This document shows, piece by piece, positions 3,371-37,604 of a stretch of DNA of 64,000 nucleotides. The position numbers and the translations under genes are program-made. Within the stretch, counting starts at the first letter, position 1. The number at the start of each line of letters is the position of its first letter. This DNA is from Pseudobutyrivibrio sp. (GTDB lineage: Bacteria; Bacillota; Clostridia; Lachnospirales; Lachnospiraceae). The notes beneath the pieces were generated by a model, which was not told the origin of the DNA, did no database searches, and worked only from the letters and a program-made list of their open reading frames with translations. The stretch spans positions 79,551 through 143,550 of the forward strand of contig JAILGH010000082.1 of the NCBI GenBank assembly GCA_024697025.1, read 5' to 3'.

Positions 3371-3422
3371 GTATAATATGTTACTCTTTTATAATTCAAA
3401 AAAATCACTTCACTTTTTTCCA
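3371..3422 (-). promoter_or_regulatory. Shared upstream block A with candidate promoter
   Basis: On the minus strand TGGAAAAAAG begins at 3422 and TTTTTTTGA ends at 3396. The last bases of the block give a -35-like TTGAAT, and a -10-like TTATAC follows after 17 nt (3373-3378). The block start-to-end distance of 27 bp is identical to copy B at 11267-11293, and one base longer than copies C and D. The gene start is 76 nt downstream of the block. Promoter assignment is inference; the repeated block is directly visible. Confidence 0.6.
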
Positions 3423-3552
3423 AAAATCTAAAAAAAGTTAAAAAATATCCTCGATTTAGTTAAAAAAACCACCGAAAACCTCTTTCCCACCTTAAAAGAG
3501 ACCTCAATACAATTAACTTCATTTGCCGCCGTGACACATCTTTCATATAACG

Positions 3553-3578
3553 TAAAAAACCGCCGGCTATGCCGACGG
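3553..3578 (-). terminator. Terminator of veg
   Basis: An 8-bp GC-rich stem (3560-3567 with 3571-3578, one G-U pair in the RNA) with a 3-nt loop is followed on the minus strand by six T residues (3559-3554). Confidence 0.8.
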
Positions 3579-3615
3579 CTTAATTCCATATTTAATTGTA
3601 ACTAGTCGTGAAAAT

Positions 3616-3855
3616 CTAGCAAAGCTTCATGCGAATTTCTTTAGTAATGATGTCTGTATAGCTGAAGGAAAGTAACTGTGATGGACATGTCTCGGTGTCG
3701 TCAACTAAGATAGTAAAAACACTTGGGTAAGCCTCTTGAATAACACCGTGTTGAATGTCGACTTTGTTACGACCCTTGTCTAACTGGATAACAACTCTAC
3801 TACCGCACTGAGATCTGACAGATTCTCGAACCTTGTCGAAGTCTTCGCGTTCCAT
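3616..3855 (-). CDS. veg: Veg family protein (biofilm/development-associated small protein)
   Basis: A 79-residue cytosolic protein of the Veg family, which in Bacillus subtilis stimulates biofilm genes and is linked to spore outgrowth. Family hallmarks visible are the SVRSQCGSRVVIQLDKGRNK segment, the EAYPSVFTI motif and the SFSYTDIITKEI tail. Its length fits the family (about 80-90). The ATG is preceded by GGGGGAGGAC, a very strong ribosome site. It is transcribed alone from a consensus promoter (3916-3944) and has its own terminator. In this organism the exact role is unknown; the small beta-barrel-like fold suggests nucleic acid or protein binding (inference). Confidence 0.9.
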   Translation of the reverse strand: MEREDFDKVRESVRSQCGSRVVIQLDKGRNKVDIQHGVIQEAYPSVFTILVDDTETCPSQLLSFSYTDIITKEIRMKLC

Positions 3856-3915
3856 TGATGTCCTCCCCCTTTTCTAGTATTTGAATGTTTAATACATTCT
3901 TGAACCGCTGCAAGG

Positions 3916-3944
3916 ATTGTACCACTTTTTGTTCATTTTGTCAA
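3916..3944 (-). promoter_or_regulatory. Sigma-A promoter of veg
   Basis: Minus strand: TTGACA (3944-3939), 17-nt spacer, TACAAT (3921-3916). A near-consensus vegetative promoter, as expected for veg. Confidence 0.85.
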
Positions 3945-4155
3945 AATTTCACTGGGACTTTTTGACTAATTATTATAAAAAACAGCCTAATTTTCCTTAT
4001 TTTTCAAGGGCTGAGAGCATTATTAAATTTTGATATAATTGAATTTTTATTCAATAAACAACATGCTTTGTCGTTTATTTATTCACTATATCTTAATTGA
4101 TAAATGGAGTTTTGTACTTTATAATATTTGGAGAAATACAAGTTCGGAGGTATAT

Positions 4156-4887
4156 ATGTTAAAAACCATTTTATCTATCACATTTATCGTGATTTTTTTG
4201 ATTGTAAGTATTCCTATCTGGGGAATCTTATTTATAATAGGGCTTTTCAATAAGGATTTGAAAGACAAGATTGCATATAAGCTTGTTGCTTGGGCATTTG
4301 GAGTTGTTATTTTTATTTCGGGAATTAAATATGAGGTTCTTGGATATGAGAATATTCCAAAGGATAGAGCAGTATTATTTATTGGTAACCACCTTGGTCT
4401 TTTTGATATTATCCTTGGTTACCATCTTTGCCCTGCAGTTACAGGTTTTCTTTCTAAGAATTCAGTTGAGAAAGTTCCTCTTTTGAATGTTTGGATGAAG
4501 CTTACATACTGCCTGTTCCTTACAAGAACAGACCCTAGAAAAGATTTAAAGCTTATTATCAAGGCTCAAGAATATATTAAAAAAGGTATTTCGATGTTCA
4601 TTTTCCCAGAGGGCACACGTTCAAAGACTGGAGAGCTTGCAGCCTTCCACGAAGGTTCTTTCAAGATTGCTACCAAGACTGGCTGCCCAATTGTACCTGT
4701 GTGCTTTACAAACACACGCTCCGTTTTTGAGACTCAAGCGCCTCGCATGAAAAAGGCTCACGTTATCGTAAGATACTGTCAGCCAATTGACCCAACATCT
4801 CTTGAAGGCGACGACAAGAAGCACATCGGGGCTTACGTCAACGGCATTATGAAGGCTCAACTTGAGGCTGACAAATATTTGATTTAG
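4156..4887 (+). CDS. plsC: 1-acyl-sn-glycerol-3-phosphate acyltransferase (PlsC)
   Basis: Transfers an acyl group to lysophosphatidic acid to make phosphatidic acid at the membrane, the second acylation of phospholipid synthesis. The 243-residue protein has an N-terminal hydrophobic segment (about residues 5-30) and the signature blocks of the family: NHLGLFD (His79, Asp84, the HX4D catalytic pair), FPEGTRSKTG (about 150-159) and a VPVCF block. The chosen ATG follows GGAGG by 5 nt; the frame extends 39 codons further upstream without a ribosome site. It is convergent with murF and the two stop regions overlap by 4 bp. Confidence 0.92.
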   Translation: MLKTILSITFIVIFLIVSIPIWGILFIIGLFNKDLKDKIAYKLVAWAFGVVIFISGIKYEVLGYENIPKDRAVLFIGNHLGLFDIILGYHLCPAVTGFLSKNSVEKVPLLNVWMKLTYCLFLTRTDPRKDLKLIIKAQEYIKKGISMFIFPEGTRSKTGELAAFHEGSFKIATKTGCPIVPVCFTNTRSVFETQAPRMKKAHVIVRYCQPIDPTSLEGDDKKHIGAYVNGIMKAQLEADKYLI

Positions 4888-6263
4888 GCTAACTTAACTT
4901 TAATAGCTTCCACTACGGTTGAGAAGTTCATAAAGTGAGATGCTTTTACAAGGATTGTATCTCCACCTCTTATGATAGGCAACAAGTCCTCAAGCATTTT
5001 TTCAACTGTATCGTAGTGATGAGCCATACATGAACTGTTCTTTTGATTAAGAGCATTGTTTATCTCTTGAGATAAATCACCAACAGTAAACACATAACCT
5101 ATATGGTTTTCTTCAAGCGCCTGTCCCATTTCAAAATGGAGCTGGCGCTCATTTTTTCCAAGCTCGCCCATATCACCAAGGACTGCTATGGTTCTGCCCG
5201 GGGCTTTTCCAAGGACCTCAATTGAAGCCTTCATGGATACTGGATTCGCGTTATAGCAATCATCTATAACTGTAATATCTCTAACAGTAATTATATTGTT
5301 TCGACCTGCGATTGTGCCTGCACTTTCCAGGCCGTTTTTTATTTCCTCGGATGTAAGCCCTAACTGTTTACCAACAGCTGCTGCAGCGAGACCATTCATT
5401 ACATTATGAGTACCTGGCAATGGGATAGTAACATCAAAGCTTTCTCCATCGATGCTAACAGTAGCCTTAGTGCCGGAAATCCCATTGGCAACAACATTGG
5501 TTGCATTAAACTGTTGGTTGTTTAAACCATAGTAGACCTTCTTTAAGCCTAGAGTATCTGCAACTGCAAGCTTGTCATCATCTCCGTTAAGGATAACAAC
5601 TCCACCCTTTGGCATATGCTCAAAAACTTCAGTCTTTGCCCTTAAAACTCCATCCCTATCCTTTAAAAATTCTAAATGGCACTGACCTATATTTGTCATA
5701 ACAACAATGTCAGGCTTTGCTATATCGGAAAGTCTATGCATCTCGCCAAAATCAGAAATTCCCATTTCTACTACAGCCACCTGATGGTCATCCCGAATTC
5801 GACATATTGTAAGAGGCAAGCCAATCTCGTTATTAAAATTACCCTCCGTCTTTAATACTCTAAACTTGGTTTCCAAAACCGATGTAATCATTTCCTTGGT
5901 GCTAGTTTTACCAACACTGCCTATTACACCAACTACTGGAATATTTAGCGTCATTCTGTATTCAGTAGCAATCTGCTTTAAAGCCACCTTGGTATCCTTG
6001 ACAATTATGTAGGGACCAGCAGGATTATCAAGCTCTCTTTCTGACAATGTGGCCAAAGCACCTTTTTCAAAAACATCTGGAATGAAATCGTGGCCATCTA
6101 CCCTTGCTCCCACCATAGGAACGAAGAGATTGTCCTTCTCAATCTTTCGATTATCGTTTACTGCCCCCGATATTTCCTTGTCCTTTAAGTTTTCACTGCC
6201 TTCTGGCAAAATCAGTTGTCCATCAACTACCTGAGCAACCTTGGCCAAAGTCATAGTTTTCAT
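4884..6263 (-). CDS. murF: UDP-MurNAc-tripeptide--D-Ala-D-Ala ligase (MurF)
   Basis: Adds the D-Ala-D-Ala dipeptide to UDP-MurNAc-tripeptide in the last cytosolic step of the pentapeptide precursor. The 459-residue length is typical. Visible are the N-terminal Mur domain, the ATP loop GSVGKTSTKEM (about 115-125), the NFNNEIGLPLT block, the metal-binding VEMGISDFGEM segment and the C-terminal DDCYNANPVSMKASI motif. It is downstream of ddl by 38 bp on the same strand, so the dipeptide synthase and the ligase that uses it are probably co-transcribed. The end overlaps the convergent plsC end by 4 bp. Confidence 0.96.
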   Translation of the reverse strand: MKTMTLAKVAQVVDGQLILPEGSENLKDKEISGAVNDNRKIEKDNLFVPMVGARVDGHDFIPDVFEKGALATLSERELDNPAGPYIIVKDTKVALKQIATEYRMTLNIPVVGVIGSVGKTSTKEMITSVLETKFRVLKTEGNFNNEIGLPLTICRIRDDHQVAVVEMGISDFGEMHRLSDIAKPDIVVMTNIGQCHLEFLKDRDGVLRAKTEVFEHMPKGGVVILNGDDDKLAVADTLGLKKVYYGLNNQQFNATNVVANGISGTKATVSIDGESFDVTIPLPGTHNVMNGLAAAAVGKQLGLTSEEIKNGLESAGTIAGRNNIITVRDITVIDDCYNANPVSMKASIEVLGKAPGRTIAVLGDMGELGKNERQLHFEMGQALEENHIGYVFTVGDLSQEINNALNQKNSSCMAHHYDTVEKMLEDLLPIIRGGDTILVKASHFMNFSTVVEAIKVKLA

Positions 6264-6301
6264 AGTTATAAGCTTCTCTCTACTTTTATTAATTGTTATC
6301 T

Positions 6302-7348
6302 CTAATCGTTGTATCTTTCAAGTGATACCTGAACTAGGTGCTCACAAAGGTCTTCAAAATTCATACCAACTGCTGCTGCTTCCTGTGGAAGAAGGCTAGT
6401 TGGTGTCATCCCTGGAAGAGTGTTTGCCTCCAAGCAATAAAGGTTGTTATCCTCATCCATCATGAAATCCATACGAGCGTATGTTGTAAGCCCAAGAACC
6501 TTAAATGCCATCTCAGCATATTTTTGCATTGCTGCTGTAACTTCTGGACTAAGCTCTGCTGGACATGTCTCAACGGCAGATCCTGCGGCATATTTATTCT
6601 TGTAATCGTAGAATCCCTGCTTTGGAGCAATCTCTATAACCGGAAGGGCCTTGCCCTCGATTACACCATCAGAAAACTCTCGCCCTGAGATGAACTGTTC
6701 AATTACGACTTCGTCCTCCCATTCGAAAGCTGCATCTAAAGCCGACTCCAACTCTGCTGGATTGTTAACGATAGTAACACCGATTGACGAGCCGCCACAA
6801 TTTGGCTTAACAATACAAGGGTACTTATCAAATGTAAATCCTGCTCTATCAGCAACGTTTAAGCTTACACCTGCTGGAGTAGGCACGCCTGCTCTCTCAA
6901 AATATTCCTTGGTCTTTTGCTTGTCCATAGCTATTGCACTGGAAATATAATCGTTTCCTGTGTACTTGATTCCATATAAGTCAAATGCTGCCTGAACCTT
7001 GCCGCACTCTCCATCACCACCGTGAAGAGCCATGAATACAATGTCTGCCTTCTGGCAAATCTTGATAACATTTGGTCCGAAAAAGCTCTTGCTCTTATCT
7101 GGACGGCTAGCAATAATCGCCTCTATATCTGGAGCATCAGTAGGAATATCCTCCACCACCACTGAATTTGCCTCGCTGTTTTCAAAAATATCTGTGATGT
7201 CAGTCTCTTTGTCTGAATATCCCATAAATACATCCAAAACAAGAGCTCGGTGTCCCCTAGCTCTAAGAGCCTTTGCCACCATTGTTCCTGATTTGAAAGA
7301 TACGTCGCGCTCAGAACTAAGACCGCCTGCTAAAACTACTATATCCAT
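6302..7348 (-). CDS. ddl: D-alanine--D-alanine ligase
   Basis: Makes D-Ala-D-Ala from two D-Ala and ATP in the cytosol. The 348-residue ATP-grasp protein shows AGGLSSERDVSFKSG at the N-terminus, the ALHGGDGE motif, the YTGNDYISSAIAMDK lid region, the KPNCGGSSIGV ATP-binding block and the C-terminal ARMDFMMDEDNNLYCLEANTLPGMT block with Asp, Glu and Asn metal ligands. I placed the start at the ATG at 7348, seven bases after GAGGGA; the 10-codon longer frame begins upstream of that site. Probable operon with murF. Confidence 0.95.
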   Translation of the reverse strand: MDIVVLAGGLSSERDVSFKSGTMVAKALRARGHRALVLDVFMGYSDKETDITDIFENSEANSVVVEDIPTDAPDIEAIIASRPDKSKSFFGPNVIKICQKADIVFMALHGGDGECGKVQAAFDLYGIKYTGNDYISSAIAMDKQKTKEYFERAGVPTPAGVSLNVADRAGFTFDKYPCIVKPNCGGSSIGVTIVNNPAELESALDAAFEWEDEVVIEQFISGREFSDGVIEGKALPVIEIAPKQGFYDYKNKYAAGSAVETCPAELSPEVTAAMQKYAEMAFKVLGLTTYARMDFMMDEDNNLYCLEANTLPGMTPTSLLPQEAAAVGMNFEDLCEHLVQVSLERYND

Positions 7349-7476
7349 GATTAATCCCTCTTTTATTGTAATTACCACTCTCCATATGAGAATAGTATTC
7401 TTTGCTACAATTCCTTAATATAGTATTTTTCAATGGAAAATACAATAGGCCATTGGCCTAGCTTTTTGCGAAGTAT

Positions 7477-8349
7477 CTAGTTATTTATGTACTTTTTATA
7501 TATGTGCTCCATCAAACGCTTACTAGCTAAAAAAAATCCATCCAAAAGCATTTCTCCCTCTCTATCCCCGTAGGACACGCACATTTGCTGTTCTAACAAA
7601 AGGTTTAAAAATAGCACTCTGTATTTTTCATTTCTAAGCAATTCATTAAAAACTCCTTTTAACAATGAATTAGTTTTTTCAAAATCATCTTCTTCTATCT
7701 GAATTTTTGCCATCTGATGTAGCAAGTAAAGGCACCTATCTCTTCTAAAAGAACTGCGACTATCAAATTGATTACAAATGAGCCCATCCATAATTTTTCT
7801 TGCCATTATCAATTCTTCTATTTCAACATATGCCAAAGCAATTTTCATAAGAATGACAAATTCGATTCTCCTTAGATTAATTAATGCTATCTCATCATAG
7901 CCAGGGAAAACTCCCGCCAGTTGATACACTTCCACGCTTGCCTCTATAAAATCTTCCGCAATCATCCCTCTTTTTCTTGCTAGTACCAGATTGGTGAATA
8001 AATAGTACTGCATATGAATCATATCTTTTCTATCCATCAGGGCTTGATATTTTAAAAGAGTCATATCGATTTCATCCATTTGCCCCAAGTGGATAGCGTC
8101 TAACAATTCATTCCCCACTTTCCTTACTTCACTTAACTTTTCTAGCGTCACTTCATCATATTCAAGCCCAAATTTACCCATGGCCTCATCTACAGCATTG
8201 AATGTTCGCTCCTGTGGATGATGTTCTCCTGTTTCAATTCGAGAGATTGTACAGGTTGAACAATTGGTCATTTCTGCTAGCTTCTCCTGGGTAATTTTGG
8301 CTCTCTTTCGAGCTTTAGCTAAATAGCCTCCGTAAGTGATTCTTATCAT
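7477..8349 (-). CDS. XRE-family transcriptional regulator with helical C-terminal domain
   Basis: A 290-residue regulator with an N-terminal XRE helix-turn-helix (about residues 8-62; KITQEKLAEMTNCSTCTISRIETGEHHP) and a long alpha-helical C-terminal region resembling the TPR-like sensor domains of Rgg/PlcR-type proteins. Such domains often bind peptides, but no peptide gene is visible next to it, so the ligand is unknown. The ATG follows a perfect AGGAGG. That ribosome site is one arm of a large dyad (8354-8400), which points to autoregulation or translational control. Flanking genes are ddl downstream and hpf upstream; no operon is apparent. Confidence 0.8.
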   Translation of the reverse strand: MIRITYGGYLAKARKRAKITQEKLAEMTNCSTCTISRIETGEHHPQERTFNAVDEAMGKFGLEYDEVTLEKLSEVRKVGNELLDAIHLGQMDEIDMTLLKYQALMDRKDMIHMQYYLFTNLVLARKRGMIAEDFIEASVEVYQLAGVFPGYDEIALINLRRIEFVILMKIALAYVEIEELIMARKIMDGLICNQFDSRSSFRRDRCLYLLHQMAKIQIEEDDFEKTNSLLKGVFNELLRNEKYRVLFLNLLLEQQMCVSYGDREGEMLLDGFFLASKRLMEHIYKKYINN

Positions 8350-8353
8350 AAAA

Positions 8354-8400
8354 AACCTCCTAATTGTTATACCGGCTACGGATTATAACAACAGGAGGTT
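8354..8400 (-). promoter_or_regulatory. Dyad that can sequester the ribosome-binding site of the XRE regulator
   Basis: In the minus-strand RNA AACCTCCT (from 8400) can pair with AGGAGGTT (to 8354), and inside it TTGTTATA pairs with TATAACAA, with one bulge and a loop of about 12 nt. The outer arm contains the Shine-Dalgarno of the 7477-8349 gene. If transcription starts upstream, the hairpin hides the ribosome site. A TATAAT also lies inside the dyad, so it could alternatively be a DNA operator over a promoter. Confidence 0.6.
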
Positions 8401-8459
8401 AAAAATCTTTGTATTAATTTTTATCAAACTATGTTCAATTTCTTATATTTTTTTGAACT

Positions 8460-8993
8460 CTAGAACTCTGGTTCAATTAGACCATAGGCCCCATTTTTTC
8501 TCTTGTAAACTACGTTGATTTCATCAGTTTCTGCGTTCCTGAACATGAAGAAATCGTGTCCGATAAGTTCCATCTCAAGGCATGCATCCTCAGCATACAT
8601 TGGCTTCATATCAAATTTCTTTGTTCGGATAATCTGGATTGATTCATCATCAGTAACTTTTTCCTCGATGAAATCCTGAGCAAAAATAGCTCTTGAATCT
8701 GACTGTTTCTTATCGATGATTTTATTTCTGTGCTTCTTCAACTGAGCTTCCAAAGTATTAGTAACAGCCTCGATTGAAGCATACATATCAGATGTGACTT
8801 CTTCTGCTCTAAGGTAGCTTCCCTTCATAGGAATTGTAACTTCGATCTTTTGACGTCCCTTTTCTACGTCTAAGGTAACTATCGCTTCAGTGTCTTTAAT
8901 AAAGTACTTGTCTAATTTTTTAAAACGCTCCTCCACTGCGTCCTTTAATCCTTGTGTTAGTTCGATGTTTTTTCCTGAGATTGTTGTTTTCAT
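8460..8993 (-). CDS. hpf: Long-form ribosome hibernation promoting factor
   Basis: A 177-residue HPF of the long type, which dimerises 70S ribosomes into inactive 100S particles in stationary phase. The N-terminal half has the RaiA/YfiA fold (ISGKNIELTQGLKDAVEERFKKLDKYF, then IEVTIPMKGSYLRAEE). The C-terminal dimerisation domain shows IIRTKKFDMKPMYAEDACLEMELIGHDFFMFRNAETDEINVVYKRKNGAYGLIEP, split here only for description. I chose the ATG at 8993 because it follows AGGTGG; the longer frame has no ribosome site. It is transcribed alone from the promoter at 9060-9088, divergent from the SDR gene. Confidence 0.93.
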   Translation of the reverse strand: MKTTISGKNIELTQGLKDAVEERFKKLDKYFIKDTEAIVTLDVEKGRQKIEVTIPMKGSYLRAEEVTSDMYASIEAVTNTLEAQLKKHRNKIIDKKQSDSRAIFAQDFIEEKVTDDESIQIIRTKKFDMKPMYAEDACLEMELIGHDFFMFRNAETDEINVVYKRKNGAYGLIEPEF

Positions 8994-9168: not shown

Positions 9169-9900
9169 ATGAAAAAAACAGCATTAGTAACTGGGGCAAG
9201 CAGAGGTATTGGAAAAGCAATAGCCTACGCATTAGCGAAAGAAGGCTATCATCTAGCACTTTTCTGCCACAACAACTTTCAATTACTGAAGGATTATGCT
9301 GCCCAGTTAGCAAAAGATTTTAAAATCGAAGTTTATGTGTACTGTGGGGACATTTCAGACAGTGAGTTTACTATCAACTCCTGCGAAGATGCCCTTTCAA
9401 AGCTTGGCCAAATTGATGTACTGATAAACAATGCTGGCAAAGCATCCATTGGACTTTTAACTGATATGTACGTAGCAGATTGGAATAGCATTATAGGCAC
9501 CAATCTGTCCGCCCTATTCTACACCGCCAAAGCAATTGTTCCTAACATGATTAGCCGCAAGCAGGGCAACATCATCAATATCAGCTCCATGTGGGGCACT
9601 GTAGGAGCTAGCTGCGAGGTGGCCTACTCCGCATCAAAGGGCGGTGTCAACGCATTTACCAAGGCTCTTGCTAAGGAGCTTGCTCCAAACCAAATCGCAG
9701 TCAACGCCATCGCCTGCGGTGTTGTAGACACCGACATGAACGCCATGCTTTCAGAGGAAGACAGGGCCTCTCTTGCAGAGGAAATCCCTGCAGGCAAGTT
9801 CTGCTCACCGGAGGAAATTGCACACATTGTGCTTGGTATTATAAATGCCCCAACCTACATGACCGGACAAATCATTGGGGTTGATGGGGGGTATATATAG
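9169..9900 (+). CDS. Short-chain dehydrogenase/reductase, FabG-like
   Basis: A 243-residue classical SDR. It has the nucleotide-binding TGASRGIG (8-15), the NNAG motif (87-90), a catalytic Ser near 139, the YSASK catalytic pair (Tyr153, Lys157) and the C-terminal GQIIGVDGGY typical of 3-oxoacyl-ACP reductases. Reduction of 3-oxoacyl-ACP with NADPH is the family activity, but the gene is alone rather than in a fab operon, so another carbonyl substrate is possible. ATG follows AAGGAGAGCG. Its end lies 12 bp from the end of the convergent orphan gene at 9913. Confidence 0.8.
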   Translation: MKKTALVTGASRGIGKAIAYALAKEGYHLALFCHNNFQLLKDYAAQLAKDFKIEVYVYCGDISDSEFTINSCEDALSKLGQIDVLINNAGKASIGLLTDMYVADWNSIIGTNLSALFYTAKAIVPNMISRKQGNIINISSMWGTVGASCEVAYSASKGGVNAFTKALAKELAPNQIAVNAIACGVVDTDMNAMLSEEDRASLAEEIPAGKFCSPEEIAHIVLGIINAPTYMTGQIIGVDGGYI

Positions 9901-9912
9901 AAATACTGATTT

Positions 9913-11079
9913 TTATTTCCCGCCGATTCTAAGCATTTTTTTAACTCCGCCTAGGCAACTGGTTGATGACTTTTCTCGCTGCGCGTTGATTGGATTATTA
10001 TATAGGGGAGCATTATTATTCGGAAGAATTGTTGTCCTCTTATTACCTTTTGTGACATCTTTCATCTCATCCAGCAGCGCCGTTAGGTTTTTACCTATTT
10101 CTTCAGTATTTATCTTTTTTTTAGAAAACTGTTCATTAATTTCGCCCGCCAACTTTTTTATATCGTCCAAAGATTTCTCAGAAATATTGGCCAAAACGTA
10201 TTGACGTGTATTCAAAAACTTTATAAACCCTGCATGTGAATTTAGCATACTATCAAGTCTCTCGATACCTTTTTTGATATTCTTTAGCTCCGCTGAATCT
10301 TTTATTCTTTTAGATTTTTTTTCTAAAAATGTCTTTGTATCGCGCATCTTTTCTATGTCCTGATTCAAAGAAGTTCCTAAATCTTCAATATAGTCTTTGT
10401 ATGCTTTAGAACTATTCTTCTTCATTAAATTCAACTTTGCGTAGTTATCATCGGTATATCCTGTATATGTTTTATGCTTATTATCCCTTATATTTATCTG
10501 TTCTATATTTTCGGCATATATATATTCATCTTTTATTCTGCCATACATTTCTTGTAAACTGCTTTTTACACTAAAGATTTGAGCTTGATGAGATATATCT
10601 ACATTTTCTTTTAATAAATCAATAAATTGTATTTGCTCTTCTACTTCTTCTAAAAATGATTTTTCATGCTCGATTGTATTAAAGCTTTCCAAGATATTTT
10701 CATACTGTTCCTGCAATTTTTTTAATTGATTATTTTGTTTTTTTACTGTAGCTATACGCGCATCATGAATATCCTTTTTGGTTTTAAAGTTACTATCATT
10801 TGGTTCTGCTAAAAGTATTTGTTCACTATCTGCATCCATTTCAGGCTCATATGAAAACTGGTTTAACTCTCCATACATTTTCACTAATTTGCCTTGCATG
10901 ACAGATAATTTGTACATGTCTTTCTGGCTTTTATTTTTTGTTCTATCATGGGCGACCAAATTTATTTTAGTATTCAATAATATGCATTTTTCTTTCAAAT
11001 TTTCACACTCACCACTATTGAATTCCAGTAATATTGGTGTATCAGTAGTCTGATTTATAATTGTATTAATATCTGCCAT
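9913..11079 (-). CDS. Orphan coiled-coil protein (cassette B), unknown function
   Basis: A 388-residue protein I do not recognise. It is almost wholly charged and helical, with probable coiled coils about residues 95-150, 160-200 and 235-350, and a short Asn/Pro-rich tail ending in SSTSCLGGVKKMLRIGGK, which could be a basic membrane or ligand contact (inference). No signal peptide, membrane segment or known catalytic motif is visible. Base composition is clearly more AT-rich than nearby housekeeping genes. The ribosome site is weak (AAGTGAG). Unlike the other two orphans, the leader from the shared upstream block is long (188 nt) and contains a 23-codon ORF and a terminator-like hairpin. Confidence 0.72.
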   Translation of the reverse strand: MADINTIINQTTDTPILLEFNSGECENLKEKCILLNTKINLVAHDRTKNKSQKDMYKLSVMQGKLVKMYGELNQFSYEPEMDADSEQILLAEPNDSNFKTKKDIHDARIATVKKQNNQLKKLQEQYENILESFNTIEHEKSFLEEVEEQIQFIDLLKENVDISHQAQIFSVKSSLQEMYGRIKDEYIYAENIEQINIRDNKHKTYTGYTDDNYAKLNLMKKNSSKAYKDYIEDLGTSLNQDIEKMRDTKTFLEKKSKRIKDSAELKNIKKGIERLDSMLNSHAGFIKFLNTRQYVLANISEKSLDDIKKLAGEINEQFSKKKINTEEIGKNLTALLDEMKDVTKGNKRTTILPNNNAPLYNNPINAQREKSSTSCLGGVKKMLRIGGK

Positions 11080-11102
11080 ATTTTATTCTCACTTTCTTTC
11101 TC

Positions 11103-11174
11103 TTATTTTTTCCCTGTTTTTACAACAAAAAATGACGACAATGCCGAAATCGCATCGCCGCCCAAATTTCTCAT
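11103..11174 (-). CDS. Candidate 23-residue leader peptide of orphan gene B
   Basis: A small ORF begins at the ATG at 11174, preceded by AAGGG at 7 nt spacing, and ends at a TAA at 11105-11103, 23 bp before the start of gene B. It begins MRNLGGDAIS, has a hydrophobic middle (ALSSFFVV) and a basic end (KTGKK). Its codons run right through the hairpin and T-tract at 11127-11162. The layout is that of a leader peptide whose translation would open a terminator. Existence as a translated peptide is unproven; a membrane-active peptide is the alternative. Confidence 0.4.
   Translation of the reverse strand: MRNLGGDAISALSSFFVVKTGKK
11127..11162 (-). terminator. Terminator-like hairpin inside the leader of orphan gene B
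   Basis: Minus-strand RNA: an 11-bp stem with some G-U pairs (11162-11152 with 11144-11134) and a 7-nt loop, then A and six T residues (11132-11127). It lies between block B and the gene start at 11079, so transcripts from the block must read through it. Confidence 0.6.
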
Positions 11175-11266
11175 AACATATCCCTTATATTCAATTTTAA
11201 ATATTGATAACCCTCTTTCTATTCATCTGTATATCTCGAAACTTTTAGACACCCACATTATATATA

Positions 11267-11293
11267 TCAAAAAAATACATCTACTTTTTTCCA
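11267..11293 (-). promoter_or_regulatory. Shared upstream block B
   Basis: Minus strand: TGGAAAAAAG from 11293, nine bases, then TTTTTTTGA ending at 11267. The bases that follow give TTGATA then, after 17 nt, TAAAAG, or a nearer TATAAT. Spacing inside the block is identical to copy A at 3396-3422. Confidence 0.6.
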
Positions 11294-11405
11294 TTTCCCA
11301 AAATTTTTTTTATTTTTTTTATTAAACAACAGGCTGTTAAAATAATTCACTTGAACAATTGTCTAGACTCTGGCTTTCGTAAGGTAAACTTTTCCATTTT
11401 TAAAA

Positions 11406-11607
11406 ATACAGTTTCTAAGACAAAAATAATAAAAAACTGTATGGTATAAACAATTTGTATACGTTATAAAATATTTGTGGTATAGCTATTCAACATTTTT
11501 ATTACATTACGCATAAACATCTAACTCAGATAGAGTAATCACACGTTCTTAAGACTCTGAAATCATTTCATACAGTTTTTTGAGCATTTTCAAAAATAAA
11601 ACTGTAT
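11406..11607. repeat. Two similar inverted repeats with ATACAGTTT arms
   Basis: ATACAGTTT at 11406-11414 pairs with AAACTGTAT at 11434-11442. The same arms recur at 11570-11578 and 11599-11607. The spacers are 19 and 20 nt, and the dyads are 164 bp apart. They may be operators or paired hairpins; no matching sites were noticed elsewhere in the window. Confidence 0.5.
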
Positions 11608-11643
11608 AATCACAAATCAAGAGTTATTTACATTCCCAGCAGT

Positions 11644-11694
11644 GCGAGGCAATCCAACTTCTTCCGTCTCCAAGACGCATCTCGCTTTTTATTT
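11644..11694 (+). terminator. Plus-strand terminator-like structure of an unassigned transcript
   Basis: GCGAG (11644-11648) pairs with CTCGC (11681-11685), enclosing a 5-bp hairpin CGTCT-CCA-AGACG (11665-11677). TTTTT then ATTT follow. No upstream plus-strand protein gene exists, so it may end a small RNA. Confidence 0.35.
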
Positions 11695-11772
11695 ACTATG
11701 ATTAAGGTGTCAAAAGGGTAAATATCATTTGATATATTAATTTTACTAAGAATAGATATTTCCAAGTAATGG

Positions 11773-11796
11773 AAAAGCGATGCATTTCTGCACCGC
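11773..11796 (-). terminator. Terminator of the WYL regulator gene
   Basis: An 8-bp stem with a GAAA loop in the minus-strand RNA (11796-11777), followed by TTTT, 23 nt after the gene's stop. Confidence 0.75.
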
Positions 11797-11818
11797 CATA
11801 TTTCGAAAATAATAATAT

Positions 11819-27538: not shown

Positions 27539-27564
27539 TGGAAAAAAATAATTTATTTTTTTGA
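27539..27564 (+). promoter_or_regulatory. Shared upstream block D
   Basis: TGGAAAAAAA from 27539, seven bases, TTTTTTTGA ending at 27564. Total length is 26 bp, the same as copy C. A -35-like TTGATT is followed after 17 nt by a weak TAGCAA. It points toward the 26-codon ORF at 27620. Confidence 0.55.
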
Positions 27565-27619: not shown

Positions 27620-27700
27620 ATGCCAAATGATACTAACGAAAGAAACAATAAAAAGCACCAGCCATGCTGGTGCTTTCCTTTTATCCTAATGCTTCCATAA
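27620..27700 (+). CDS. 26-residue ORF behind block D, possible cassette remnant or leader peptide
   Basis: ATG at 27620 is preceded by AAAGGGG at 9 nt. The predicted peptide starts MPNDTNERNNKKHQP and ends in a Cys/Phe/Pro-rich stretch, because its codons run through the hairpin at 27652-27676. The last 20 bases overlap the 3' end of the opposite gene. Three readings are possible: the 5' remnant of a deleted orphan gene, a leader peptide, or chance. It is supported by the upstream block, which is otherwise found only before full-length orphan genes. Confidence 0.35.
   Translation: MPNDTNERNNKKHQPCWCFPFILMLP
27652..27680. terminator. Bidirectional terminator
   Basis: A perfect 11-bp stem AAAGCACCAGC with a CAT loop (27652-27676). 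CCTTTT follows on plus; on minus the stem ends in TTTTTATT, serving the TSCPD gene. Confidence 0.85.
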
Positions 27701-32326: not shown

Positions 32327-33100
32327 ATGAACGACGAAGAACAGCTTTTATACAAAAGATTAATAGAGCTTTCCAACAGAGCTTACCAAAATAATATATA
32401 TACTTTTAGCGACTTTCTGAGCCTTAGCCAACAGGAGATTTTATACCAGGCTTGCCGGGATAAGGATTTTGCACCTATCCCATATGAACTCTTTGGTGGC
32501 TACGAAAATTGCGAGCGTAAAATGGCTCGTTTTGGCAGCGAGGCAGACATGGGCTATACCGTGGATTATCCTATCAAATGCATCAAGATAGAGCCTTTGG
32601 CCAAAAAGTTTGCGAAGGAATATACCCACAGAGACTACTTAGGCTCCCTTATGAGCCTTGGAATCGACAGGAAAAAGTTTGGGGATATTTTTGTTGATGG
32701 CATGGATGCATATCTTTATGCCGATGAATCTACCGCTGACTATCTTATAGAAAATCTGGTTTCGGTAGGACGAAACTCAGTAAAATGCTCCTTTAGCGAA
32801 CTGCCTGATTCTTACAAACGAGCTGCCCTCACTGAAGCCACCATTCAGGTTGCATCTCCTCGAGCAGACGCAGTTATCGCAAGAGTTTACAATCTGAGTC
32901 GCAAGGACACTCTCCCTTATTTCACTGAAAAGAAGGTATCTGTAAATGGCCATATAGTTGAAAACAATGACAAAATCCTCTCTTCCGGTGACAGTGTTTC
33001 GGTGCGCGGCCACGGGAAGTTTAACATCACCTCAGAAGGTGGGCTGAGCCGCAAGGGTAAGCTAAATCTTACTGTAGAAATATTTGGAAAAAATAAATGA
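32327..33100 (+). CDS. YlmH-family S4-domain RNA-binding protein
   Basis: A 257-residue protein with the YlmH layout: an N-terminal helical region, a central domain containing LMSLGIDRKKFGDIFVDG, and a C-terminal S4 RNA-binding domain (about 180-255, with SRKDTLPYFTEKKVSVNGHIVENND). Members act in ribosome-associated quality control, helping to handle stalled 50S-peptidyl-tRNA, and in division gene clusters. Here it is away from the usual ylm/division cluster. The ATG at 32327 follows GAGAGGAT. It ends before a bidirectional terminator shared with nadE. Confidence 0.88.
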   Translation: MNDEEQLLYKRLIELSNRAYQNNIYTFSDFLSLSQQEILYQACRDKDFAPIPYELFGGYENCERKMARFGSEADMGYTVDYPIKCIKIEPLAKKFAKEYTHRDYLGSLMSLGIDRKKFGDIFVDGMDAYLYADESTADYLIENLVSVGRNSVKCSFSELPDSYKRAALTEATIQVASPRADAVIARVYNLSRKDTLPYFTEKKVSVNGHIVENNDKILSSGDSVSVRGHGKFNITSEGGLSRKGKLNLTVEIFGKNK

Positions 33101-33126
33101 ACATGGTCTTTTCGGTCAAACTATAA

Positions 33127-33160
33127 AAGGTCTTTAGGTAAATACCTAAAGACCTTATTT
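33127..33160. terminator. Bidirectional terminator between ylmH-like gene and nadE
   Basis: A perfect 14-bp stem AAGGTCTTTAGGTA with a 2-nt centre (33127-33156); ATTT follows on plus and TTTTAT on minus. Confidence 0.8.
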
Positions 33161-33164
33161 AATG

Positions 33165-33917
33165 CTAATCTACTCTCTTAAATGCTGGCATCAGCTGAAG
33201 CTTGTGTAAGTTAGCTACGTATTTCTTTTGGATTGATTCTCTAACATCTGCTGGAATATCAGCATTTGGATCTGAGATGTACTCATCAAGCTGAGCATAC
33301 TTAAATCCAAGCTTATCCTCATCAGACATTCCTGAAAGACCATCAGATGGAACCTTATGTACAAGCTGTTTAGGAAGACCAAGATATTCGCCGACCTGAA
33401 GCACCTCAGTAACTGTAAGGTCCTGAAGTAATGAAACATCTCCTGCCGAATCACCATACTTGGTTGAGTAACCAACGTAATCCTCAGATGCATTGCAAGT
33501 ATTAACTACAAATGATGTAACCCCCTGTCCCTGTGCTACTGCATAAAGAGTAGACATGCGAAGACGTGGTGCAAGGTTAATCTTTAAGTCCTTGGTAACG
33601 TCAAATGTAGTTGCCTTTTCAAATGTAGCAATTGCTGCATTATAATAATCTGTAATAGGTACAATCTCGTAAGTCAATCCAAGATGACTTGCCAAAAGAA
33701 TAGCATCATCTATATCACTCATCTCGCCGTTTGGCATTATCACTGCGCGGATTCTGTCAGTACCAATCGCTTCTTTTAAAACTGCTGCTGTAACAGATGA
33801 ATCCTTTCCTCCGGAAATACCAATAACGGCTCTAGAATTGTCTCCAAACTTGTTGAACCAATCTCTAGTGTAGGCTATAAGTGCCTCAGTCTGTTTCTTA
33901 ACATCAAACTCTCTCAT
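33165..33917 (-). CDS. nadE: NAD+ synthetase, ammonia-dependent type
   Basis: Converts deamido-NAD to NAD with ATP and ammonia, the final step of NAD synthesis. The 250-residue protein lacks a glutaminase domain. Landmarks are the PP-loop GISGGKDSSVTAAVL (about 29-43), RMSTLYAVAQ, a CNASEDYVGYSTKYGDSAGDVS segment for deamido-NAD binding and KVPSDGLSGMSDEDKLGF near the C-terminus. It is 11 bp downstream of nrtR, giving a regulator-enzyme operon. Confidence 0.95.
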   Translation of the reverse strand: MREFDVKKQTEALIAYTRDWFNKFGDNSRAVIGISGGKDSSVTAAVLKEAIGTDRIRAVIMPNGEMSDIDDAILLASHLGLTYEIVPITDYYNAAIATFEKATTFDVTKDLKINLAPRLRMSTLYAVAQGQGVTSFVVNTCNASEDYVGYSTKYGDSAGDVSLLQDLTVTEVLQVGEYLGLPKQLVHKVPSDGLSGMSDEDKLGFKYAQLDEYISDPNADIPADVRESIQKKYVANLHKLQLMPAFKRVD

Positions 33918-33928
33918 AATTGTTGCTC

Positions 33929-34741
33929 CTACTTGAGTATGTATAATTCTGACATTCGGCGACCAACAATTGATTTGCTTTTCTCACCTAAAGCTTCGAT
34001 TCTATCAGCTACCATGATTCTAAAGTTAGCCTTGTAAAGCTTGTGTCCTAATAACAACTCATATATTACTTGTAAATCTGGCAGTGTAAATGTAACCTCT
34101 GCCATTGAGAATGGAAGATCAGTGTACTCAATTTCACGTCTGATCTTTTTCATTGCTTCAATTATAATCTCAACATGATCAAATGCAAGCTTTGTTTTGC
34201 TCTTTAATGTTGGAACTAAATTTGGATATTTGATATGACCATTCTTAAATCTCTTGGTTGAAAGATAGTAAACAATATCTACACCAATATCATCGTTAAA
34301 GATATGAATCCTGTTATCCGTAAATTCGAAATCAAACCAAGCTGCCTCTAATGCATCATCCCCGCCCTTAACCGGAAGGGTAAATGGTGTAAGTGCAATA
34401 TAAGCAACACTCATAACTCTAGTTCTAGGGTCACGGTCTGGCTTTGAGAAAGTATATACTTGCTCTAGGAAAACATCCTTGATGCCTGTCTCTTCTTTAA
34501 GTTCACGCTTTGCTGCCTCGTAGCAAGTCTCGTCTGGGTGAACAAATCCACCAGGCAAAGCCCAGCTATTTAAATAAGGATGCCCACCTCTTTTTATTAA
34601 TAAAATCCTAAGCCCCGACAAATCCTTCTTGGTTCCAAGTACCATCATATCCACTGTAACAGATGGTCTAGGATAATCCCCTGGATCGTATTGAGCTAAG
34701 AATTCGGCTTCTGTAAGTCCATTTTTATCTTTGAGCTCCAT
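33929..34741 (-). CDS. nrtR: NrtR-type Nudix regulator of NAD metabolism
   Basis: A 270-residue two-domain protein: an N-terminal Nudix domain with an intact box (GGFVHPDETCYEAAKRELKEETG, sampled in part) and a C-terminal winged helix (about 195-265, PFSMAEVTFTLPDLQVIYE and GRRMSELYILK). That fusion defines NrtR, a repressor that leaves DNA when it binds ADP-ribose. Because the REXXEE residues are intact it may also hydrolyse ADP-ribose; many NrtR regulators have lost this. It precedes nadE and a dyad overlaps its promoter, consistent with autoregulated control of nadE. Confidence 0.88.
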   Translation of the reverse strand: MELKDKNGLTEAEFLAQYDPGDYPRPSVTVDMMVLGTKKDLSGLRILLIKRGGHPYLNSWALPGGFVHPDETCYEAAKRELKEETGIKDVFLEQVYTFSKPDRDPRTRVMSVAYIALTPFTLPVKGGDDALEAAWFDFEFTDNRIHIFNDDIGVDIVYYLSTKRFKNGHIKYPNLVPTLKSKTKLAFDHVEIIIEAMKKIRREIEYTDLPFSMAEVTFTLPDLQVIYELLLGHKLYKANFRIMVADRIEALGEKSKSIVGRRMSELYILK

Positions 34742-34768
34742 ATTATCCTCCTTAAATAATAGTCCTCA

Positions 34769-34803
34769 AGTAGCAAGCTACTACTATTTTGATATTTTGT
34801 CAA
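34769..34803 (-). promoter_or_regulatory. nrtR-nadE promoter with candidate NrtR operator
   Basis: Minus strand: TTGACA (34803-34798), 17-nt spacer, TAGCTT (34780-34775). The dyad AGTAGC-AA-GCTACT (34769-34782, plus strand) covers the -10 box. Both the position and the neighbouring nrtR suggest an operator. Confidence 0.6.
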
Positions 34804-34830
34804 TGGGTAATATGTTTTTTTATAAATTTT

Positions 34831-36306
34831 TTATATCTTGGACAGTTCTTCAATTATGTCCCTTGCCAAAACCGATTTAATATCTCTGGCTTTTGAGGCA
34901 TTTACCCCAGCTTTTCCATGGAGATAGGCGCCGGCTGTCGCCGAATTTACTGCAGATAAGCCCTGTCCAGCCAATGACGAAACTATTCCTGCCAAAACAT
35001 CTCCCGAACCAGGCGTAGCTAAAGCCTGATTTCCACTTATACAATAAAAAATTTTATCACCGTCAGAAATTACAGTTGTAAAATTTTTCAAAATAAGTGT
35101 GCATTTATTTTTCTTAGAAAACTCTTTTGCAACTTCTTCCATATTGTAATTAATATCAGCCACCTTAACTCCAGACAAGCGCTCCATCTCCTTTAAATGT
35201 GGAGTAAGGATAATAGAAGCTTTTGCTGCCGCCTGCTGCAATTTATCTAAATGTTTTGCTGCTAGATTTACTCCATCAGCATCTATAACTGTAGTGACCT
35301 TAGTATTTTCAAGAACAGTCTTTAAAATATCCTCTGAAACTTCAGACTGCCCCAAGCCTGGACCAATCAAAATCACATCAGCCCATGCCATCTGTTGTAA
35401 CAGCTCCTCTTTGTCAAATTTATCATATCCCAAGTACATTGCCTCTGGCAGTGCCTGCTGGATTGAGTTGATATTGTTGACATGAGTGTATATCTTAACT
35501 AGTCCCGAGCCTGCCACAAGTGCTGCCTTTGCAGATAGATAACATGCTCCATAAATGCTTTCACTTCCCGCTATGACAAGTACCTTTCCGCAAGTGCCTT
35601 TGTTGGCTGTCAATGGACGCTCAGGTATTATCGAAAGAACATCCTCCTCCAAAAGCTTTGCATTGTAATCAGTCTCGCCGTAAATCCCTACGTCTGCAAC
35701 ATATATTTTTCCAATACTTTTTTTGCAATCTCCAAGGACAAGTCCCTTTTTCAAAAATGCAAAGGTAACTGTGTAGTCGCATTTGACTGCCACATCACCA
35801 AGGATTCTTCCACAATCTGTATCAAATCCCGATGGGATATCAACAGCTACAACCGGCTTTCCACTTTCATTTAAATAGGTTGCCGCCGTCGCAAACTCGC
35901 CCTCTAGACCTCTAGTAAGTCCAATTCCAAACATTGCCTCTATATATAAATCTGCCCCATCGGCTTCCTTTGAATCAAACCCAAATACCAAAGGCACATT
36001 ATATGAGCTAGCTATATCTATCTGCTCCTTAAGCTGTGAGGAGAACTTGTCAGGATTCCCTATTACTATAGCTTTAACGTCGTAGCCTTTTATATAAAGA
36101 AGTCTCGCTATAGCTACTCCATCACCGCCGTTATTTCCTGGCCCTGCCAATACGTAAATACGATTTGCTTCAGGGTAGTTAGCAGTTGCTATATCTACCA
36201 CTGCCATGGCTGCTCTTTCCATTAATACCATAGCTGGTACCTTGTGCTTATTAATTGTAGCTTCATCAAAGGATTTCATCTCTTTTGCTGTGACTATACT
36301 TTTCAT
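34831..36306 (-). CDS. nnr: Bifunctional NAD(P)H-hydrate epimerase/ADP-dependent dehydratase
   Basis: Repairs damaged NAD(P)H hydrates. The 491-residue fusion has an N-terminal epimerase domain (YjeF_N; GPGNNGGDGVAIARLL at about 53-68, AMFGIGLTRGLEG, VDIPSGFDTDCG) and a C-terminal dehydratase of the ribokinase-like fold (KVLVIAGSESIYGA, DADGVNL, TPHLKEMERLSG, and GNQALATPGSGDVLAGIV with the catalytic Asp). It sits upstream of nrtR-nadE on the same strand, making this an NAD synthesis/repair neighbourhood, although the nrtR promoter lies in between. Confidence 0.95.
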   Translation of the reverse strand: MKSIVTAKEMKSFDEATINKHKVPAMVLMERAAMAVVDIATANYPEANRIYVLAGPGNNGGDGVAIARLLYIKGYDVKAIVIGNPDKFSSQLKEQIDIASSYNVPLVFGFDSKEADGADLYIEAMFGIGLTRGLEGEFATAATYLNESGKPVVAVDIPSGFDTDCGRILGDVAVKCDYTVTFAFLKKGLVLGDCKKSIGKIYVADVGIYGETDYNAKLLEEDVLSIIPERPLTANKGTCGKVLVIAGSESIYGACYLSAKAALVAGSGLVKIYTHVNNINSIQQALPEAMYLGYDKFDKEELLQQMAWADVILIGPGLGQSEVSEDILKTVLENTKVTTVIDADGVNLAAKHLDKLQQAAAKASIILTPHLKEMERLSGVKVADINYNMEEVAKEFSKKNKCTLILKNFTTVISDGDKIFYCISGNQALATPGSGDVLAGIVSSLAGQGLSAVNSATAGAYLHGKAGVNASKARDIKSVLARDIIEELSKI

Positions 36307-36400
36307 AAATTTGCCCCCAAATGAGTTCTAGTGTTATAATTACCCCTAAATGGTGTTTAGAAACTGATTTTATTATAGTACATATTATAGGAGAATAATC

Positions 36401-37477
36401 GTGAAAAAGAAAATTGTTATAGGACTTTGGATTTCCTTAGTTATACTAGTGATTGCATTTTGCAGCCTAGTAGTTTATCAAAATAAGCAAGAACAGATAC
36501 TTATGGAAACTCAAGAAAAGCTTGAGGAAGCCCAGCTTAAATTAGATCAAAAAGCTGAGGAAGCTGCCCAGGCTCGCAAGGAGCAGGAAGCTCTTGAGGC
36601 TCAGGTAGCAGAAGATATTGATTATACATTCACTGATTTTAAGGCATCATATTTTGCTAAGAAGGATGCAACAGTTAGAGAGAACCCATATGACAGTGCG
36701 GAAGTCGTTGGTACTCTTTCTATTGATACTCCAGTTGAAATAAAGGCAAAATGTGACCAGAGTGATTACTACAAAATTAAAGTTAACGGGGATGATGGAT
36801 ATATTAGCTTTGACGATGTATCAGAGGAATATGTAGAAATTCCGCTTCCAACATCTAGCAAAAAATCTGTGCCATCATCTAAGAAGGATATTTTGTTTAT
36901 TGGTAATTCTATTACCATGTACCCTGCAACCAAAGATTGGTGGGGCTCAGGATGGGGATGCGGTGCTACTGCTCCAGAAAACGACTATGTTCATCGTACA
37001 GTGGCAGCAAAGGGATATTCTTCTTTTGACTTTATGTCACTTCGTTCATGGGAGTTTTCTAACACCAGAAACAACGAGCTTGATGACTTGGATCCTTATA
37101 TCACCAAGCATCAATACGGCACAATAGTCATCGAGTTAGGTGAAAATGTAAAGGGTCACGAGACTCACTTTAAAGAGGATTTGACGGATATGATTAAATA
37201 TATCCACACCTACAATCCTAATGCCAAAATTGTAATGCTGGATAATTTCTGGCCTTACTCAAATATTATCAAAACCAAAAAAGCCGTAGCCTCTGAGACA
37301 GGCAGCACATATGTAAGCCTTTCCGACATCCAAGGTGTTTCATCTTATCAGCTTCAGGAAGGCCAACAGTATACCGCACCAGATGGTACCGTATATACGA
37401 TAAATTCCTTCCTTGCAGGCCATCCAAACGATCAAGGATTTGAGGCTATCGCAAATAAACTTATAGCGGCACTGTAG
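36401..37477 (+). CDS. Membrane-anchored SH3b plus SGNH-hydrolase-like protein
   Basis: A 358-residue protein with a GTG start after AGGAG. A membrane anchor (about 5-25) is followed by a short Glu/Ala coiled coil (30-70), an SH3b-like domain (about 85-150; AKKDATVRENPYDSAEVVGTL) and an SGNH domain (from about 163) with ILFIGNSIT holding the nucleophile Ser, ELGEN, and GHPNDQGF. Where SGNH enzymes usually have DxxH, this has LAGH, so the Asp of the triad is missing or moved. It may deacylate or bind cell-surface glycans. Divergent from nnr; its own terminator follows. Confidence 0.78.
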   Translation: MKKKIVIGLWISLVILVIAFCSLVVYQNKQEQILMETQEKLEEAQLKLDQKAEEAAQARKEQEALEAQVAEDIDYTFTDFKASYFAKKDATVRENPYDSAEVVGTLSIDTPVEIKAKCDQSDYYKIKVNGDDGYISFDDVSEEYVEIPLPTSSKKSVPSSKKDILFIGNSITMYPATKDWWGSGWGCGATAPENDYVHRTVAAKGYSSFDFMSLRSWEFSNTRNNELDDLDPYITKHQYGTIVIELGENVKGHETHFKEDLTDMIKYIHTYNPNAKIVMLDNFWPYSNIIKTKKAVASETGSTYVSLSDIQGVSSYQLQEGQQYTAPDGTVYTINSFLAGHPNDQGFEAIANKLIAAL

Positions 37478-37516
37478 TTGCGGCATAGTGTATCAAAACT
37501 AAATATTTGCATTTCA

Positions 37517-37545
37517 AAAGCTCTTCCTTTCGAAGGGCTTTTTTT
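37517..37545 (+). terminator. Terminator of the SH3b-SGNH gene
   Basis: A 10-bp stem with one G-U pair (37517-37526 with 37532-37541), a 5-nt loop CTTTC and a run of T residues. Confidence 0.85.
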
Positions 37546-37578
37546 GATGAAAGCTTTCATAAAAATTTTTTATTGAAA

Positions 37579-37604
37579 TGGAAAAATTCTCTAAATTTTT
37601 TTGA
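37579..37604 (+). promoter_or_regulatory. Shared upstream block C
   Basis: TGGAAAAA from 37579, nine bases, TTTTTTTGA ending at 37604, 67 nt before orphan gene C. A TTGAAT at the end of the block may be a -35, with TATTTT 18 nt later. Confidence 0.6.

Follow-up and report, generated by a model that had tools for sequence, protein, structure and literature searches.

A promoter motif shared by a type IV secretion system and scattered orphan genes points to a candidate substrate set in rumen Pseudobutyrivibrio

Introduction

What does it mean when the same short block of DNA stands ahead of genes that otherwise have little in common? The question is raised by a 64,000-nt stretch of a Pseudobutyrivibrio genome (hereafter the window; GenBank assembly GCA_024697025.1, contig JAILGH010000082.1, positions 79,551–143,550), in which a bipartite motif, TGG with an A-tract followed by a T-tract ending in TTGA, occurs at four dispersed places. 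The genome (G000; the window is C11:79551–143550) belongs to a rumen member of the Lachnospiraceae and comprises 2.71 Mb in 110 contigs, 91% complete. The original prediction took the motif for the mark of a regulon of orphan cassettes, with TTGA perhaps serving as a −35 element. Here, we trace the motif through this genome and its relatives. The explanation that we consider the most probable, and rather likely to be right, is that one dedicated promoter type drives, together, a type IV secretion system (T4SS) without a nearby relaxase and a scattered set of orphan substrates with fast turnover.

Results

The motif recurs across the genome ahead of orphan genes

All four copies were found in the window at the predicted positions and strands, two of them 27 bp and two 26 bp long, and none appeared in 100 dinucleotide shuffles of the window. 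As predicted, the window holds no fifth exact copy; a scan permitting up to three mismatches added only matches at 32669 and 38058, which is the chance level (~1.3 expected per pattern). We then searched the whole genome with the exact pattern TGGAAAAA-N6..13-TTTTTTTGA, total length 23–30, using the reversed pattern as control. This search gave 38 matches, 19 per strand, compared with 0 for the control, which refutes an occurrence at random rates. The spacing is constrained, because all 38 matches are 26 or 27 bp long although 23–30 bp were permitted. With two mismatches permitted, 60 (spacer 9) and 61 (spacer 10) overlapping-register matches were obtained versus 3 control matches each, and nine distinct sites carried one mismatch. 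The shuffles and reversed controls rule out chance or AT-richness as the origin of the motif.

A same-strand open reading frame (ORF) follows 36 of the 38 exact sites (35 ORFs, one being shared by two sites). The two sites without an ORF are C11:107089 (window 27539) and C77:3756, the latter a second orphan promoter copy in G000. At most sites outside the T4SS locus, the motif is followed by a lone AT-rich orphan gene whose product is coiled-coil or disordered, and the downstream genes as a whole are mostly orphans and T4SS genes, not housekeeping genes. Both in its frequency and in the kind of gene behind it, the motif therefore behaves as a regulon of orphan cassettes would, and its copies almost certainly mark one shared regulon.

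The sites resemble a promoter contacted at two points

To define the element, we aligned 47 sites from G000 (38 exact, 9 one-mismatch) and 42 from Pseudobutyrivibrio UBA1225 (G011), where two motif sites yielded no ORF. The consensus reads TGGAAAAAA-N7/8-ATTTT(T/A)TTGA-W-TATAAATAG, and TGGAAAAAA is preceded by an A/T-rich stretch with a T run ~10 bases ahead of TGG. The motif measures 26 bp at 35 and 27 bp at 12 of the G000 sites; the G011 sites are 27 bp (22 sites), 26 bp (18) or 25 bp (2) long. Two fixed blocks whose distance varies by one or two bases are as expected of a promoter contacted at two points. Among the 35 ORFs that follow exact G000 sites, 27 have their start codon 40–75 nt past the motif, as have 30 of the 42 in G011, and a strong Shine–Dalgarno site mostly precedes it.

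In both genomes a conserved TATAAAT-like block begins 1–2 nt after TTGA. This is too near for a −35/−10 pair, so that a role of TTGA as −35 is unlikely. In the consensus, an A-tract, not TTGACA, stands 16–18 nt before the TATAAAT-like block. The original prediction thus stands in its regulon of orphan cassettes, but its −35 assignment is doubtful. Judged from the aligned sites, an activator box ahead of a TATAAAT −10 would fit better, as would alternative-sigma contacts of the form TGGAAA-N15/16/17-TTGA. An invertible promoter or phase switch was set aside, the near-palindrome being imperfect.

The variant T-tract TTTTATTGA was present at 21 of 32 G011 sites versus 1 of 28 G000 sites when one pattern admitting both was used. 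Because this change is spread over many promoters, it points to a common trans-acting factor. In G000, four proteins matched Sigma70_r2. An extracytoplasmic function (ECF) sigma factor is encoded at C63:37622–38143, followed by a membrane protein gene, and might be that factor, contacting TGGAAA and TTGA as its −35 and −10. Among the 29 genus genomes it has a close ortholog (82%) only in G011, the other genome with a large regulon (best matches elsewhere ~30%), and the motif spacing varies by one or two bases, as between sigma contacts. However, its distribution is explicable by shared ancestry alone, and P. xylanivorans MZ8 (G013) and RGIG7542 retain the motif at their T4SS with no close match to this sigma factor. 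The region upstream of its gene, which both species have retained, bears by eye a different ECF-like site (GAAGAC-N16-CGTTAT), so that the regulon promoters do not match the sigma factor's own promoter. We therefore regard this candidate as improbable.

The same motif precedes T4SS genes

The T4SS is encoded at C11:7402–24742, ~55 kb ahead of the window start, and carries two exact motif sites, one upstream of VirB11 and the other upstream of VirB2. Behind the VirB11-side motif lie the genes for VirB11, a 363-aa protein, VirB4, an NlpC/P60 protein and VirD4. Pfam identified VirB11 (T2SSE, 3e-22), VirB4 (P-loop_TraG, 4e-16), VirD4 (T4SS-DNA_transf, 2e-40), NlpC/P60 and, in two of the four VirB6-like paralogues, TrbL/VirB6. 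VirB2 scored under the curated cut-off (25.3 vs 27.9 bits), yet is similar and similarly placed in relatives. A VirD4-type coupling protein, VirB4, VirB11, VirB6 and VirB2 are thus encoded together at this locus. The motif also stands ahead of VirB11 and VirB2 in UBA1225 and MZ8, and at like places in the T4SS locus of RGIG7542. At the level of sequence, a promoter common to the T4SS and the orphans is well supported.

The G000 VirD4 shares 53–61% identity with 20 loci of Lachnospiraceae and like metagenome-assembled genomes (MAGs), and less than 60% with all 1097 plasmid records matched. The machine is of the Firmicutes VirD4 (CD1115) kind. A scan of viral contigs with VirB2 returned no relative. 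No relaxase was detected among 19 C11 proteins scanned by Pfam, machine genes included (the remaining genome was not scanned), and none was seen by eye in the gene list of C11:1–40500. As a positive control, a related locus resembling an integrative and conjugative element (ICE) in a Roseburia MAG (L077) gave a relaxase match. The association of a relaxase with a T4SS that characterizes a conjugative ICE was accordingly not found near the G000 system.

A motif-driven 137-aa protein with an acidic tail is encoded at C11:5946–6359 (L031) in G000 and at L143:498–911 in G011 (58% identity), and is a candidate T4SS chaperone or adaptor. In MZ8, two genes around the T4SS (contig C23; L174:833–1306 and L175:2878–4692) encode proteins ending in ...AHC (QATRRMAAHC and PVARKAFAHC), possibly a different C-terminal signal.

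Motif and T4SS clade occur in the same genomes

VirD4 at a minimum of 75% identity was found in four of the 29 genus genomes: G000, G011, G013 and G017, the last of which fits RGIG7542 by VirD4 position. A G005 match reached 68/59% in two pieces. A stricter pattern combining the motif with the TA block (GGAAAA-N9..11-TTTTDTTGA-WNTA) occurred in exactly these four genomes (34, 38, 1 and 1 sites, respectively) and in none of the other 25, with all controls at 0. A similar second pattern gave 28, 32, 1 and 1 sites in the same genomes. Farther away, 19 of 20 more distant T4SS loci (L063–L082) lacked the motif, and L072 had one two-mismatch match. Among 397 family genomes, two besides G000 had a single match and one had a control match. 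Stray control matches occurred in three of 61 genomes searched with the bare exact pattern and in one of the 397 family genomes.

Regulon proteins have basic tails, and a few end in CaaX

We assembled a regulon set of 93 ORFs, behind 35 exact, 9 one-mismatch and 7 two-mismatch G000 sites and 42 G011 sites. The seven two-mismatch sites were retained by eye from 21, the criterion being a TATAAAT-like block and an orphan ORF; therefore, the tail and CaaX statistics were rerun without these seven and the nine one-mismatch sites. An alignment of 83 proteins omits four T4SS proteins, five ORFs shorter than 70 aa and one ORF related to AIR synthase (L144), which the tail statistics nevertheless include. 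Three of the aligned proteins are truncated at the stretch end. Background proteins (n = 330) came from the same fetched stretches with a simple ORF caller. A few of them are regulon-like, among them a CaaX protein (...FKQCCTIM), whose gene comes second after a regulon promoter of G011, and a G011 protein of 584 aa behind a one-mismatch motif.

The regulon genes have a mean G+C content of 32.1%, compared with 39.7% for background genes (n = 330), and their products are rich in Asn and Lys. Among the 83 proteins, Pfam found nine families at E 0.001 and NCBIfam five weak ones. A profile of the 83 proteins matched long coiled-coil or helical proteins in the PDB, dystrophin and dynactin among them (nine sequences), which we treated as coiled-coil noise. 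An Mbeg1-like hydrolase domain is present in a G011 regulon protein (L141), in the product of the near-T4SS MZ8 gene L175:2878–4692 and in that of a G000 gene without an exact motif. A partial G011 regulon ORF (L154:3–257) matches the ToxN family of endoribonucleases at its beginning (7.8e-08). A family of small secreted proteins (MKKQIIAATLMASM...) also lies under the motif, with two members in G000 (C53, L045) and three in G011 (L155, L161); they are probably a Sec-exported part of the regulon, not effectors.

Substrates of VirB/D4 systems, as in Agrobacterium and Bartonella, carry a positively charged C-terminal translocation tail. Consistently, the last ten residues of the regulon proteins had a mean net charge of +1.58 versus +0.18 in the background (65 vs 330 proteins, exact G000 plus all G011; p = 3e-8), with 0.43 versus 1.41 acidic residues. 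Each genome alone showed the difference (G000, 32 proteins, p = 2e-6; G011, 33 proteins, p = 6e-4). It persisted when 57 compositionally matched background proteins (mean +0.65) served as the reference (p = 0.002), and internal ten-residue pieces of an 81-protein set had a mean charge of −0.2, never exceeding +0.38 in 2000 draws. As a group statistic only, the regulon proteins thus have basic C-terminal tails of the VirB/D4 type. In addition, CaaX-type ends occurred in 5 of 70 regulon versus 2 of 330 background proteins (p = 0.002), namely CKIM, CTFL and CNIL in G000 and CRFM and CIIL in G011. Reassigning the ...FKQCCTIM protein to the regulon gives, post hoc, 6/91 versus 1/329.

Cassettes in the window turn over between relatives

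The original prediction described three of the four downstream ORFs as large AT-rich orphans with no recognizable domain. All three are intact, encode 213, 388 and 400 aa and have 30–32% G+C; the 213-aa protein, however, has sub-threshold Pfam matches. The distances predicted from motif to ORF (67, 76, 188 and 56 nt) each equal a measured gap plus one, with the first three belonging to the loci in another order: the gaps are 75 nt for the copy at 3396–3422, 187 nt for 11267–11293, 66 nt for 37579–37604 and, counted by hand, 55 nt to the stub behind 27539–27564.

The minus-strand copy at 3396–3422, located like the others by pattern search, has the 27-bp form (TGGAAAAAAGTGAAGTGATTTTTTTGA) and is followed by attataaaag. 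It precedes the gene for putative effector 1 (2679–3320, minus strand; 213 aa, 32% G+C, ribosome-binding site GAAGGAGGA, tail ...RPAPMPHGRV). Its Pfam matches are to GrpE (20.2 bits, cut-off 25.8) and IFT46, and NCBIfam gave none. A single-sequence AlphaFold model, poor overall (pLDDT 53), has an N-terminal helical hairpin at residues 6–69, the remainder being of low confidence. The second minus-strand copy (11267–11293, 27-bp form, then tatatataatg) precedes putative effector 2 (9913–11079, minus strand; 388 aa, 31% G+C), with a basic tail ...KKMLRIGGK and a mostly helical, likewise poor model of low confidence (pLDDT 48). A terminator-like hairpin at 11134–11162 lies within the 187-nt leader of this gene, where attenuation is possible. 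On the plus strand, the 26-bp copy at 37579–37604 (then ataagaaatag) precedes putative effector 3 (37671–38873, plus strand; 400 aa, 30% G+C, ribosome-binding site GTGGAGG, basic tail ...KRQNHTGSLQRFHK). Neither effector 2 nor effector 3 had a Pfam match at E 0.01 or an NCBIfam match.

Block by block, the first 51.8 kb of the window are collinear with G011 C42 (70–91% DNA identity), and the breaks include regulon cassettes, among other breaks. A self-contained cassette of promoter and effector 2 gene (9900–11817) is cleanly missing at the collinear place in G011, where the flanking blocks abut with an 8-bp overlap. The effector 3 cassette (37477–38922), in which promoter and gene are followed by a hairpin (38874–38926), is replaced there by ~42 bp. 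At the effector 1 locus, the promoter and first codons align with G011, in which the counterpart copy (C42:50622, TGGAAAAAAGTGAAGTGATTTTATTGA) has an identical spacer in collinear DNA; the encoded proteins, of 213 and 142 aa, can scarcely be aligned. Conversely, G011 has a 404-aa orphan behind a variant promoter (AGG for TGG) where G000 has ~70 bp.

The fourth copy (27539–27564, plus strand, 26-bp form) is an orphaned promoter between nadA and a TSCPD gene. Reading by hand revealed behind it a 26-codon stub (27620–27700, plus strand), which has a polar start (MPNDTNERNNKK...) resembling other regulon proteins and crosses a short inverted repeat into the 3′ side of the neighbouring gene. The nadA–TSCPD interval of MZ8 has no copy, and G011 has an unrelated ORF there. 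Promoter and stub look like a decayed cassette.

Across the two genomes, few regulon proteins are common to G000 and G011 (BLAST, 1e-4): the T4SS genes, the 137-aa protein, the Sec-signal family and a weak membrane-anchored pair (26%). Searching the background as well added one pair, C50:1542 and the 584-aa G011 protein (38%).

Discussion

The common promoter, a T4SS without a nearby relaxase, the basic-tailed orphans and the occurrence of all of these in the same species make effector translocation the best reading of the data, and the orphans are probably, in the main, substrates of the T4SS. A eukaryotic target is slightly favoured, because of the CaaX ends, the mostly single-gene cassettes and a rumen habitat with protozoa. 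One study reported that, of the bacterial families accompanying rumen protozoa, Lachnospiraceae were the most prevalent (PMC6217230), and Butyrivibrio has been reported as enriched with ciliates (PMC6079354).

We propose the following sequence of events. One trans-acting factor would bind the bipartite site and fire all copies together. The T4SS would then assemble from VirB11, VirB4, the NlpC/P60 wall hydrolase, VirD4, four VirB6-like proteins and VirB2, and VirD4 would recruit the orphans through their basic, acid-poor C-terminal tails. The orphans would pass into an adjacent cell, which is most likely to be a eukaryote such as a rumen ciliate; there, host prenyltransferases could attach a lipid anchor to those with CaaX ends. 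Under conflict with the target, cassettes would be rapidly gained, lost and altered in sequence, whereas the promoter would be kept.

The target could instead be bacterial. Rumen bacteria compete, and a T4SS that injects the orphans into competitors would resemble the interbacterial weapon of Xanthomonas, whose T4SS delivers X-Tfe toxins. The ToxN-like start of one partial G011 ORF and the Mbeg1/lipase-like domain of another regulon protein would suit such a role. However, toxin-like domains are few, two window proteins are predicted, at low confidence, to be helical or disordered, and CaaX ends are meaningful only in eukaryotes. The cassettes are mostly single genes, and adjacent immunity genes were not noticed, although no systematic search for them was made. 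On balance, we find this unlikely. Similar doubt attaches to the idea that the orphans are not substrates at all and have accessory, surface or regulatory roles, being expressed alongside a machine of the conjugation type. Several members do have Sec-like signals or membrane domains, and the T4SS has kin among the machines of ICEs and plasmids, but a crude signal-like start is missing from 75 of the 81 members, the tails of members differ from background and no relaxase was found near the T4SS. Finally, the presence and absence of cassettes in collinear DNA might suggest that the motif is no promoter, and that mobile cassettes of one family, scattered by transposition, have it as their conserved end. 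Its conserved places ahead of T4SS genes in relatives and the promoter-like distance of 40–75 nt to the start codon in most ORFs argue against this, and the repeat lists of two cassettes showed no obvious ends in common; we consider this reading very improbable.

Several observations weigh against effector translocation. The basic tails and CaaX ends are statistical, and the CaaX ends were noticed before being tested; moreover, the start of the CNIL protein (C49:1369) is uncertain, the best start being in another frame, and the CaaX protein L167 has a weak ribosome site. Some members are not effector-like, including a four-protein Sec-signal family, DUF1287, DUF5711, lipoprotein-like and acidic-tailed 137-aa proteins, and the ORF picked at one G011 site (L144), 235 nt off, encodes the enzyme related to AIR synthase. 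The bare exact pattern matches once in each of three genomes without this T4SS clade (G003, G016 and G019); only the G019 match (C29:11298–11324, 27 bp) has the usual length, and no VirD4 match is found there. In MZ8 and RGIG7542, strict-pattern matches lie at the T4SS cluster only, so that the evidence for a large effector set comes from two metagenome genomes; looser matches (one or two mismatches) add sites in both MZ8 and RGIG7542. G000 and G011 are close relatives and therefore not independent.

The promoter yields a candidate set at genome scale: for a single genome, roughly 45 candidate substrates are listed. It is possible, and we put it forward tentatively, that a Gram-positive rumen Pseudobutyrivibrio uses a large, dedicated T4SS to inject several dozen fast-evolving proteins, some bearing CaaX, into ciliates or other eukaryotes, in which case the motif would serve as an effector catalogue. 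If true, this would open the molecular biology of bacteria–ciliate relations in the rumen, which is relevant to methane and feed use. An isolate of P. xylanivorans MZ8 has been obtained and sequenced (PMC8627218); the same T4SS clade and motif promoters are present in this isolate, which makes the machine testable.

Effector translocation by T4SSs is known in Gram-negative bacteria, and in Legionella the PmrA and CpxR regulons show that a shared upstream element can predict T4SS effectors; the motif described here is longer than those. Like the VirB/D4 systems of Agrobacterium and Bartonella and the Dot/Icm system of Legionella, the present system combines genes for a coupling ATPase and a channel with scattered single-gene orphan candidates. 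The candidates share basic C-terminal tails with VirB/D4 substrates and a few CaaX ends with Dot/Icm, for which CaaX effectors have been reported (PMC13081727). Unlike in those systems, the host is Gram-positive, the machine is kin to Firmicutes conjugation systems, and one short promoter type marks both machine and candidates.

With the T4SSs of Firmicutes ICEs and plasmids (CD1115-family VirD4), the G000 system shares VirD4, VirB4, VirB6, VirB2, NlpC/P60 and much of the gene order. It differs from them in the lack of a relaxase found in or beside the cluster, in its four VirB6-like genes and in the attached orphan regulon. In the titles and abstract openings of the open-licence literature we found no report of a T4SS effector set in Butyrivibrio or Pseudobutyrivibrio, or of this regulon, and such an absence is unproven. 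Whether Gram-positive T4SSs translocate effectors has been described as a long-standing question, with the 89K island of Streptococcus suis cited as evidence; its T4SS is reported to secrete SspA-1 and to matter for virulence (PMC12857230). That system is likewise Gram-positive and has one reported substrate, whereas dozens of candidates are linked to the Pseudobutyrivibrio machine by a common promoter.

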